The notes beneath the pieces are model-generated. The model did not search any database and was not told where the DNA came from. It was given only the letters and a program-made list of their open reading frames with translations. The translations under genes and the position numbers were made by a program. Shown here in pieces: positions 654-4,685 of a DNA stretch of 64,000 nucleotides. The number at the start of each line of letters is the position of its first letter. Positions within the stretch are counted from its first letter, which is position 1. This DNA is from Paenibacillaceae bacterium (GTDB lineage: Bacteria > Bacillota > Bacilli > Paenibacillales > CANHGK01), in the NCBI GenBank assembly GCA_947460235.1, contig CANHGK010000005.1, positions 1 through 64,000 on the forward strand, written 5' to 3'.

Positions 654-714
654 TTTTTCTAAAAAAGTTCTTTTTATATATTGAAAATATCAGAATATTC
701 AAATATAATAAAGA

Positions 715-1085
715 TAACACCGATAAAGGCAAAATCGTTGAAAAGCGATGGCGCAAAGCTAGAGGGACTAAGAGTGTAGATTGTCATTCTTAATTAAAGT
801 GGTCGTTAGTTGAGTTCGATTGTAAGATTGAATTCACTTGTTGGAGGTAGCGAAATTTATTGTTTGGTAATTGATTGAATGTTCGCTAGGATGGGGCGAA
901 TGGTTGATTGAATTACTGAATGGATGGTTTTGTTATGAAAGCCTAACGTAAACGAGTAGTTAAGAGTTCGTCACACGGGTGCATATGGGCCGGGTTGAGA
1001 GCAGAGTTTGCTGCCGGTTATTGAATAAATAAGTGTGCCGCGTTGAAGATGCAATGCTACAGAGATGTCAGCCAGCTACCGAAGT
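715..1085 (+). promoter_or_regulatory. GEMM-I (c-di-GMP-I type) riboswitch with a very long P3 insertion
   Basis: The 5' half of a GEMM-I aptamer is at 725-768: GGCAAA, a P2 hairpin ATCGTT-GAAA-AGCGAT with the GNRA tetraloop (734-749), GCGCAAAGC (751-759) and GGGAC (764-768). The matching 3' half, GTC then AGCCAGCTACCG, is about 300 nt away at 1067-1081. The two halves are joined by an extended stem: GAC/GTC, TGTAG/CTACA (775-779 with 1057-1061), ATTG/CAAT (780-783 with 1052-1055) and CAT/ATG. The insert at about 791-1044 has its own hairpins (TAGCGAA/TTCGCTA; CACAC/GTGTG). The base before GCAAA is G, matching Vc2 G20, which predicts c-di-GMP binding. The ligand is inferred. Confidence 0.7.
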
Positions 1086-1095
1086 ACGAGGAATC

Positions 1096-1207
1096 GTAAA
1101 GTGTCTACACTGAAAAGAGCAAACCCATCGAAAGATGGTGACGCAAAGCTACAGGGGCTTAATTCGCAAGAAAATGCCTGCCAGCTACCGGGTATGAAGG
1201 ACTTTAC
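1096..1207 (+). promoter_or_regulatory. GEMM-I riboswitch, A20 variant (possible 3',3'-cGAMP sensor)
   Basis: A complete GEMM-I aptamer. P1 is GTAAAGT (1096-1102) with ACTTTAC (1201-1207). It is followed by GAGCAAACC, a P2 hairpin CCATC-GAAA-GATGG, GACGCAAAGCTACAGG, a short P3 with a TTC-GCAA-GAA hairpin, and the tetraloop receptor TGCCAGCTACCG. It directly follows the first aptamer, giving a tandem. The base before GCAAA is A, where c-di-GMP aptamers have G (position 20 of Vc2). This substitution is known to shift specificity towards 3',3'-cGAMP, so the ligand is uncertain. An intrinsic terminator begins 10 nt downstream and is the likely expression platform for the genes at 1355-2033. Confidence 0.9.
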
Positions 1208-1216
1208 CGGTGTTAC

Positions 1217-1274
1217 AAAAAGACTTCTTCTCTCTCTCGTTTTTGAAAAGACGACGGAGACAAGGAGTTTTTTT
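1217..1274 (+). terminator. Riboswitch-controlled intrinsic terminator (expression platform)
   Basis: Arm 1217-1240 pairs with 1251-1274 over 24 positions with only two mismatches (C1236/C1255 and C1230/C1261) and a few G-U pairs. The outer part is an A5/U7 helix, so the U-tract lies in the 3' arm. It is placed between the tandem aptamers and the first regulated gene at 1355, as expected for transcriptional control. Whether ligand turns transcription on or off cannot be read directly. Confidence 0.8.
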
Positions 1275-1354
1275 GTGCTGAAAAATATGTTGTGCTCTGT
1301 TATAGTTAGGTATACGTATATTTGAATATAATATTTTCTGAAAGGAGACCGGCA

Positions 1355-2624: not shown

Positions 2625-4685
2625 TTAGAGGGTAAGATGTTCATTGAGCAAAGTTAGGGATTTACGGTTATTGCGTGTGCGAATATCTTCTAGTTCTTGT
2701 TTGGGAATGGAAAGAAATGCTTTCGCGCTTGCTGGACAAAATTGAGTTCCGATATTTTGTGAAACGATTTGAATTGCGGTTTCGATACTTTGGGCTTTAC
2801 GGTATGGTCGGTCACTCGTAATTGCATCAAATGTATCAGCAATTGCGAAAATCCGAGCACCAAGCGGGATTTCATCTCCGCGTAATCCGTGTGGATATCC
2901 TTGGCCATCCCAACGCTCGTGATGGTAAAGTACGATATCAATTGAACCTTCAAGGAATTCGATATCGCGCATCATTTCAAAACCAATCATAGGGTGAGTT
3001 TTCATGACTTCCCACTCTTCGGGGAACAGTTTGCCGGGTTTGAGTAAGATGGCATCAGGTATTCCGATTTTTCCGATATCGTGAAGCAATGCACCCCAAC
3101 GGATTTTCTTTAACGATTGTTGTTGAAGATCCATCCGATTCGCGATAGCCGTACTGTAGAGTACGACTCGTTCAGAATGTCCTTCGGTTTCGGAATCTTT
3201 TTTATCGAGTGCAATTGTCAACGCTTTAATAATTGCAAGATGGGAACGTTCGAGATTGCGATTTTTCATTTGACGACTAAGTGGCGTACCTTTTGGTGTA
3301 ATTAATTGGTCGCATAAGTCACAAAGCTCTTGGTGAAAGCGATAGCTGTTTTCACTGTCAACGAGAACAACAATCCCATTTACGTTGTTTGAGACCGTAT
3401 CAATCAAGGGGCAAAATAATGCTGACTTCGCTGGAATATGATTGAAACGAACGGATACTACACCGAGGTCTTCAATATTGCTACAGTAGACCGATTTTTT
3501 ATGGAAGAGTACACTTGAAATCGTAGCCGATTCCGTAAGTCCCATATTCAAATCATCAGATTTAACATTACGTAGTCGGAATTGTTCTTCATCAATTAAC
3601 CAAACGTAAACATTACTTAGCTTGAATAGTCGGCGTGACATTTTGGCGATTTTATTAGAAATGACAAAATGATCATTTGAACGCATGATTTCATCATTCA
3701 CCCGGTCAGCAACGTCTTTGAACATTTGACGCATGAGTTGACGGTCTTTTTCAACAAAATGATGAATCGATGATGAAAATTGAGCAATGATGTTTTCTAA
3801 CATACTTGCTTCTTTTTGGCGAAACCGATTTTTTCGTTTGCTGTATAAATGTAATACAGCGACCGTTGAATCGAGGAATGTTACCGGTATGCGCATGACT
3901 GAAGCGTAATCAGTAGATTCTAAGACTCGATCTTCACCAATGCGTTCAGGATCGAAATCGTTGATAATTAGTCGCTTGCGGCTAATTAACATATCCGATG
4001 TTACTGAACCTGTAAATAAAGAAGATTTTCGAATCACGATTGGCGTTACTGTATTGCGGTCGTACATATAAGAGGTCATTTCGGACGGTGCATAAGCGTT
4101 CGGATGAGTGAGTAATAGCGTGTCGAATCCGAGATGTATGTTAATATGTTTTACAATCAATTTACAGAAATCAACAAGTGCCTCGTAATGATGCAGCGTG
4201 TTTGTGATCGTATATTGCAATTTAATTACTTCGGACTCGTAGGTTTGTTGGATAAGCATACTGAGCATATCAGAAACTGACAAAAGGAAGGCGATATCTT
4301 GCTCAACAAGTAACCCTTTTGGCGCAGTCACGACCATCGAACCCCAATGATAATTATGTGTCAACAATGTAAACGCATGTTGATCAGCTTTATGTTCTGG
4401 ATCAAGATTTAAATAGGCAAGGACAGGTGTAATATCCGGCAATGCAGGGTCACTTTCACACTCTGCAGGTGGTATTTGGGAGCCAGCACTGCAAATGAGT
4501 TTGTGATACATTCCTTCAATTTTATAAATAGCAATTAATGACGTGTCCGAAAAACAGCGTCGGGTCATGTTCACGATATCTTGCAACATTTGCGGAAGTT
4601 GTGTGAGATTCGGTTTTGTAAAAATCATATCTGTTGCTCGAGATAAGGTCGACAGCTTCTGTTGCATGAGCTTTTCCGATTCCAT
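2625..4685 (-). CDS. GAF-domain HD-GYP protein, probable c-di-GMP phosphodiesterase
   Basis: A 686-residue soluble protein. The first 470 or so residues look like two or three GAF-type sensory domains. The C-terminal 184 residues are an HD-GYP domain, which hydrolyses c-di-GMP to pGpG and GMP (some members also cleave 3',3'-cGAMP). The metal and catalytic motifs are intact: HSERV from residue 503, HDIGK from 535, HHERWDGQGYP from 587, and IADTFDAIT. There is no membrane segment. The start ATG 4685 has GGAGGG upstream. The gene is transcribed alone, divergently from the methyltransferase at 4813. It is the only apparently active phosphodiesterase in the window and could be the off-switch for the GGDEF protein at 34948. 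Confidence 0.9.
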   Translation of the reverse strand: MESEKLMQQKLSTLSRATDMIFTKPNLTQLPQMLQDIVNMTRRCFSDTSLIAIYKIEGMYHKLICSAGSQIPPAECESDPALPDITPVLAYLNLDPEHKADQHAFTLLTHNYHWGSMVVTAPKGLLVEQDIAFLLSVSDMLSMLIQQTYESEVIKLQYTITNTLHHYEALVDFCKLIVKHINIHLGFDTLLLTHPNAYAPSEMTSYMYDRNTVTPIVIRKSSLFTGSVTSDMLISRKRLIINDFDPERIGEDRVLESTDYASVMRIPVTFLDSTVAVLHLYSKRKNRFRQKEASMLENIIAQFSSSIHHFVEKDRQLMRQMFKDVADRVNDEIMRSNDHFVISNKIAKMSRRLFKLSNVYVWLIDEEQFRLRNVKSDDLNMGLTESATISSVLFHKKSVYCSNIEDLGVVSVRFNHIPAKSALFCPLIDTVSNNVNGIVVLVDSENSYRFHQELCDLCDQLITPKGTPLSRQMKNRNLERSHLAIIKALTIALDKKDSETEGHSERVVLYSTAIANRMDLQQQSLKKIRWGALLHDIGKIGIPDAILLKPGKLFPEEWEVMKTHPMIGFEMMRDIEFLEGSIDIVLYHHERWDGQGYPHGLRGDEIPLGARIFAIADTFDAITSDRPYRKAQSIETAIQIVSQNIGTQFCPASAKAFLSIPKQELEDIRTRNNRKSLTLLNEHLTL

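Follow-up and report, generated by a model that had tools for sequence, protein, structure and literature searches.

A free-standing c-di-GMP riboswitch RNA of 445 nt, merRNA, has been described in Bdellovibrio bacteriovorus, where it was proposed to act as a store of c-di-GMP; no conserved ORF is present downstream and no relatives were found outside the lineage (PMC3627812). Tandem c-di-GMP-I riboswitches have been described as cis regulators, and in Clostridioides difficile a c-di-GMP-II aptamer is found together with a group I ribozyme (PMC9481103).

Two c-di-GMP-I (GEMM-I, RF01051) aptamers in tandem, both on the + strand, were identified in the window analysed here, the first 64,000 nt of a contig (C5; GenBank accession number CANHGK010000005.1) from a Paenibacillaceae bacterium. 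Positions 715-1085 most likely represent aptamer 1 of a tandem RNA of ~560 nt that forms a unit of its own and is a free-standing c-di-GMP-binding non-coding RNA (probability about 0.5). Its transcription, ligand binding, action in trans and the effector role of a domain in P3 are proposed on the basis of the sequence and of predicted folds. A second copy (the paralogue) was located 76 kb away in the same contig (C5:77205-76615, minus strand).

Like merRNA, the RNA is predicted to be a free-standing molecule of a few hundred nt that includes a c-di-GMP riboswitch and is restricted to one lineage. However, it belongs to another phylum, carries two tandem aptamers and is present in two genomic copies. 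The merRNA type is also marked by massive expression. All of the remaining merRNA-type traits, namely an own promoter and terminator, the lack of a downstream gene and lineage restriction, are predicted for the paralogue, and in the window copy the unit is followed by ORFs. The known c-di-GMP-I tandems likewise consist of two successive aptamers with a terminator after them, but here aptamer 1 is of giant size and no gene lies downstream of one of the copies. The C. difficile RNA also joins a c-di-GMP aptamer to a second large RNA domain; however, that aptamer is of another class and the two are in series, whereas here the domain is nested in P3 and has no ribozyme match in Rfam.

A split c-di-GMP-I core

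The features of the window copy are listed in Table 1. The 5' half of aptamer 1 includes GGCAAA, P2 with a GAAA loop, CGCAAA, and the P3 base with the receptor strand GACUAAG, while the 3' half consists of the receptor AUG, the P3 base GUCAGCCAGCU and ACCG. The original prediction, that the halves of a GEMM-I aptamer lie ~300 nt apart, is borne out, as 292 nt were found between them, all located beyond the tetraloop receptor (CUAAG.../...AUG). In the Vc2 architecture of c-di-GMP-I aptamers the core can form when an insert sits distal to the receptor, and the position of the insert should therefore allow the binding core to form here.

Table 1. Features of the tandem c-di-GMP-I locus in the window
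Feature	Position	Strand	Basis or properties
Sigma-A-like promoter, TTGAAA-17-TATAAT	681-709	+	11/12 consensus matches
Aptamer 1, 5' half	718-772	+	RF01051 alignment, 42 bits
P3 insert, 292 nt, distal to tetraloop receptor	773-1064	+	C 11%, G 30%; MFE -84.8 kcal/mol, z -4.5
P3 extension, 5' strand	775-787	+	pairs with 1049-1061; MFE and sampling
P4	788-965 (788-809 with 943-965)	+	MFE; sampled pair 792-961, probability 0.905
P5 hairpin, 11 bp, 4-nt loop	811-836	+	MFE; sampled pair 816-831, probability 0.999
P6 long hairpin, 40 bp, 7-nt loop (888-894)	840-942	+	MFE; sampled pairs, probability 0.97-1.0
P7 region	966-1046	+	two small hairpins in MFE, or alternative single long hairpin
P3 extension, 3' strand	1049-1061	+	pairs with 775-787; MFE and sampling
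Aptamer 1, 3' half, AUGUCAGCCAGCUACCG	1065-1081	+	sequence; spaced-pattern match
c-di-GMP-I aptamer 2, canonical size	1108-1192	+	Rfam, 68.7 bits; letter survey
Strong intrinsic terminator	1216-1274	+	folding; about -33 kcal/mol, followed by 7 U
Possible separate promoter, CTGAAA-17-TATAGT, TG before -10	1278-1306	+	9/12, weak, consensus match only

A search with the GEMM-I model placed the 5' half above the RF01051 gathering cut-off of 35. In the match (718-820, 42 bits) the 5' half is complete but the 3' half is poor, as aptamer 1 is closed by a spurious 3' end, at 820, in place of the true 3' half. The paralogue reached 36.4 bits, again via a spurious 3' half. Model-based annotation thus conceals such RNAs: the wrong 3' half is chosen in the Rfam alignment, and aptamers split by a large P3 insert are likely to be under-reported.

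The conserved core is complete in both copies (GGCAAA, GAAA-capped P2, CGCAAA, the CUAAG/AUG receptor and the 3' GCCAGCUACCG), and the receptor-side elements are identical between them. All conserved core elements of RF01051 are shared by aptamer 1 and aptamer 2. However, the P3 apical loop of the family is short (consensus length 87 overall), whereas structured P3 domains of 292 and 279 nt are inserted here. The giant-P3 RNA is thus a variant of the c-di-GMP-I class with the core of the family and a P3 size foreign to it, and not a new class.

Ligand-selectivity position

The position of Vc2 G20, which we take to be RF01051 position 11, is G in aptamer 1 (within GGCAAA) and A in aptamer 2 (AGCAAA for GGCAAA) in both copies. 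The AGCAAA sites were seen at 1108-1124 of the window and in aptamer 2 of the paralogue (locus L041, minus strand). At this position G is also present in the further aptamers read in this genome, and A was found in 3 of 32 GEMM-I aptamers read in related genomes. An A at the G20 position is a mark of c-AMP-GMP-type (GEMM-Ib type) aptamers. The position is a selectivity factor for the ligand and not a hard filter (PMC9262584). A different ligand preference of aptamer 2, which would make the RNA a two-ligand device, is a possibility suggested by this letter and not a finding.

Predicted fold of the P3 insert

The structures described for the inserts are thermodynamic predictions. In the MFE fold of the window insert, P4 encloses a three-way junction with P5 and P6. 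The continuous extended P3 stem of the original prediction (UGUAG/CUACA, AUUG/CAAU, CAU/AUG) is part of this MFE fold, with sampled pair probabilities of 0.86 (777-1059) and 0.43 (786-1050), but it exceeds chance only marginally when considered by itself as a terminal helix (p 0.02-0.06), and the corresponding closing helix of the paralogue is weak (p 0.15-0.26). Two further stems that had been proposed within the insert are contradicted by the pair probabilities, which were 0.0 for UAGCGAA (848-854)/UUCGCUA (882-888) and 0.001 for CACAC/GUGUG, the true coordinates of which are 972-976/1033-1037. The proposed CCGG/CCGG stem with AGCA/UGCU inside is plausible as a near-isoenergetic alternative (probability about 0.3-0.43). 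It corresponds to the single long hairpin form of P7 (CCGG 990-993/1014-1017), which at -83.2 versus -84.8 kcal/mol is 1.6 kcal/mol less stable than the MFE fold and is the form that matches the paralogue.

The aptamer P3 base is missing from the unconstrained MFE of the whole transcript or segment. Forcing it costs about 1.3-1.6 kcal/mol, a predicted cost well within what ligand binding could pay. Neither insert contains a long reading frame.

The predicted shape is retained between the two copies

The paralogue was found in a DNA search with the whole unit, which gave a match at C5:77240-76773 on the minus strand. When the loci are aligned, they agree over the promoter region, in the two halves of aptamer 1 and across much of aptamer 2. 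The paralogue insert of 279 nt is located at the same point in P3 as the window insert. However, the two inserts could not be aligned, the Smith-Waterman score being no better than that of shuffles (p 0.25).

Both inserts fold more stably than dinucleotide shuffles (z -4.48 in the window and -5.93 in the paralogue; 0/150 shuffles as stable in each case). In both, a P3 extension, P4 with P5 and P6 inside it, and P7 follow one another, and P6 is 40 bp in one and 39 bp in the other with a 7-nt loop in each. The two MFE folds differ by a tree edit distance of 141, whereas shuffles of one insert compared with the other insert gave 224 +/- 27 and 231 +/- 25, and 141 was reached by 0/960 shuffles in each direction. 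It was also not reached within the 100 most stable or the 100 most paired shuffles; in a smaller first run with 150 shuffles per direction, 0 and 1 had reached it. None of 123 stably folding stretches of the same genome came as close. The distance falls to 129 if the single-hairpin P7 is used for the window copy, a form that was chosen after the fact.

The inserts also share an unusual composition. Both rank among the most C-poor and G-skewed stretches of the genome sequence analysed. Of 11,548 stretches of 285 nt from this sequence, the fraction with a G-over-C skew at least as extreme was 0.001 for one insert and 0 for the other, and C makes up 10% of the paralogue insert, close to the figure for the window insert. 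Of these few C residues, 91-96% are in predicted pairs, compared with 85 +/- 5% for shuffled versions of the window insert.

Although this comparison concerns two sequences from one genome and uses thermodynamic prediction rather than family covariation, it suggests that the ~290-nt P3 domain has kept its shape, but not its sequence, between the copies. As length, composition, stability and architecture agree without sequence similarity, this points to selection on shape and not to passive insertion. Of the two explanations offered in the original prediction, an aptamer carrying a second RNA domain is therefore well supported by a paralogue insert of similar length, at the same point and with the same predicted architecture. 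The other, a small insertion that was tolerated, becomes less likely given that the paralogue insert is alike in architecture without similarity in sequence.

Transcription signals and neighbouring genes

The window promoter lies directly before aptamer 1, and transcription is expected to start near 716. The paralogue has a similar promoter (TTGAAA-17-TATATT, 10/12) at a nearly equal distance from its aptamer 1, and in both copies 7-8 nt separate the promoter end from the aptamer. The terminators of both copies are U-tailed, have a predicted stability of about -33 kcal/mol and are situated 3' of aptamer 2 without overlapping it.

A sense gene is present downstream of the window copy and absent downstream of the paralogue. 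In the window, two ORFs (43 and 181 aa) without a Pfam match begin at 1355, 80 nt past the terminator, and may use the weak candidate promoter at 1278-1306. The predicted paralogue transcript, of ~590 nt, takes up the interval that separates an HD-GYP-like gene, which has the same orientation as the RNA and its stop at C5:77266, from a convergent histidine kinase gene, the 3' end of which is at C5:76611. Elsewhere in the genome, the remaining GEMM-I aptamers with downstream sequence that was examined all precede same-strand reading frames, and the two giant tandems thus stand apart.

Both RNA copies adjoin HD-GYP-type genes. The window copy is flanked by a GAF-HD-GYP gene (2625-4685, minus strand) and an Hpt-domain gene (258-653). 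The HD-domain protein encoded upstream of the paralogue (L041 13267-14388, minus strand) looks like a degenerate HD-GYP, with HHERFAGGGTP for the usual GYP and the HD motif replaced, and is possibly a non-catalytic c-di-GMP protein.

Proposed mode of action and alternatives

A free-standing RNA is the most economical explanation, as one copy has no gene and a recognisable terminator/antiterminator switch was found in neither. The tandem RNA would be transcribed as its own unit (~560 nt in the window), with the P3 apical loop beyond the tetraloop receptor replaced by the ~290-nt domain. Binding of c-di-GMP would dock the GAAA loop that caps P2 into the receptor in P3, and docking would fix the geometry, orientation and stability of the large P3 domain. 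This domain would be the working part, either as a trans-acting or protein-binding scaffold or as a stable carrier that sequesters the messenger; it may otherwise have the role of a stabiliser. The more specific form of this model, in which docking in aptamer 1 gates a ~285-nt effector and aptamer 2 is a possible second input, is put forward tentatively.

The main rival is an ordinary tandem riboswitch that controls termination in cis for a small membrane-protein operon (1355-2033), in which case P3 would be a spacer and the paralogue would have lost its gene. Aptamers of the c-di-GMP-I class often occur as tandem pairs (347 doublets, PMC9481103), the terminator lies between aptamer 2 and the ORF at 1355, and the same-strand genes behind the other GEMM-I aptamers of this genome fit such a role. 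One of these aptamers, in contig C20, has a P3 loop that looks able to supply a terminator arm, and when the window transcript is truncated, pairing is possible between the terminator arm and the P3 strand of aptamer 1. However, that pairing is at the level of shuffled arms (p 0.66) and has no equivalent for the terminator arm of the paralogue; no antiterminator pairing with the terminator arm exceeded shuffled arms. In a thermodynamic test the terminator, lying outside aptamer 2, formed with a probability of about 1 in both copies, and competition with an aptamer or antiterminator was not seen. The paralogue moreover has no sense gene to control, and the ORFs at 1355 may have a promoter of their own, albeit a weak one. 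Cis control of the operon is thus rather unlikely, although it is the strongest competitor of a free-standing RNA.

Passive origins of the insert are less probable still. A hairpin-rich, MITE-like insertion may have entered a permissive P3 loop ahead of the duplication of the unit, and the window insert does have short terminal inverted repeats (TGTAGATTG...CAATGCTACA) with GAG flanking each side. The tip of P3 is structurally tolerant, and engineered P3 loops have been used in crystal constructs. However, neither insert has another copy in the genome or in the relatives searched, the inverted-repeat termini are missing from the paralogue, and passive DNA would be unlikely to drop all similarity yet keep length, composition, stability and architecture, making this origin improbable. 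It is far less credible that the two halves are paired by accident, aptamer 1 being broken and its 3' half part of something else. While the Rfam alignment itself picks another 3' half, the spaced two-half pattern occurred 0 times in 100 shuffles, and the presence in the paralogue of an identical 17-nt 3' half at nearly equal spacing largely refutes this explanation.

To our knowledge, riboswitch effectors are nearly always defined by the gene downstream. If the reading as a free-standing RNA is correct, the locus would represent one of the rare examples in which a second messenger works through a stand-alone RNA, the effector of c-di-GMP being a long non-coding RNA and not a riboswitch attached to a gene. 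The duplication with conserved shape and the gene-less copy raise the interest of the locus beyond that of the original prediction.

Distribution and other GEMM-I aptamers

A scan of about 85,000 species genomes for the spaced pattern with 266-326 nt between the halves revealed no other giant P3. Of 11 matches, 10 were ordinary tandem or triple GEMM-I arrays with a gap that reaches across two aptamers, and the eleventh (L059) ends at a normal downstream aptamer and was rejected. Order-level scans of up to 300 genomes with 205-265 and 326-386 nt gave four apparent ordinary tandems, or nothing, and a pattern scan of viral contigs gave only two unrelated chance matches. These negatives are limited to the fixed length ranges and to patterns without mismatches.

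At permissive Rfam thresholds both inserts produced only chance matches and could be assigned to no family, ribozymes included. DNA relatives of the inserts were not found elsewhere in the genome and were at chance level in relatives from the order, and the whole window unit was not found in phages or plasmids. No second genome from the family of the host was among those drawn from the order, which is probably why no homologue was found.

Several other GEMM-I aptamers were seen in the course of this analysis. In the C20 aptamer (C20:3132-3253; L042, minus strand), an enlarged P3 loop holds CCTCCATCT, which is largely complementary to GGAGATGGG located downstream, just before a T run. This P3 loop may form the 5' arm of a terminator, with P3 acting as expression platform. 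Three closely similar GEMM-I aptamers (L043, C37:8242-8363; L045, C22:36782-36878; L046, C16:9726-9826) precede genes encoding secreted proteins that resemble one another and have N-termini that read as amylase-like, and the C37 aptamer has an enlarged P2 hairpin. Triple tandem GEMM-I arrays were present in Clostridia-like MAGs (L052, L054, L056 and L062), several of them with apparent terminators between the aptamers.
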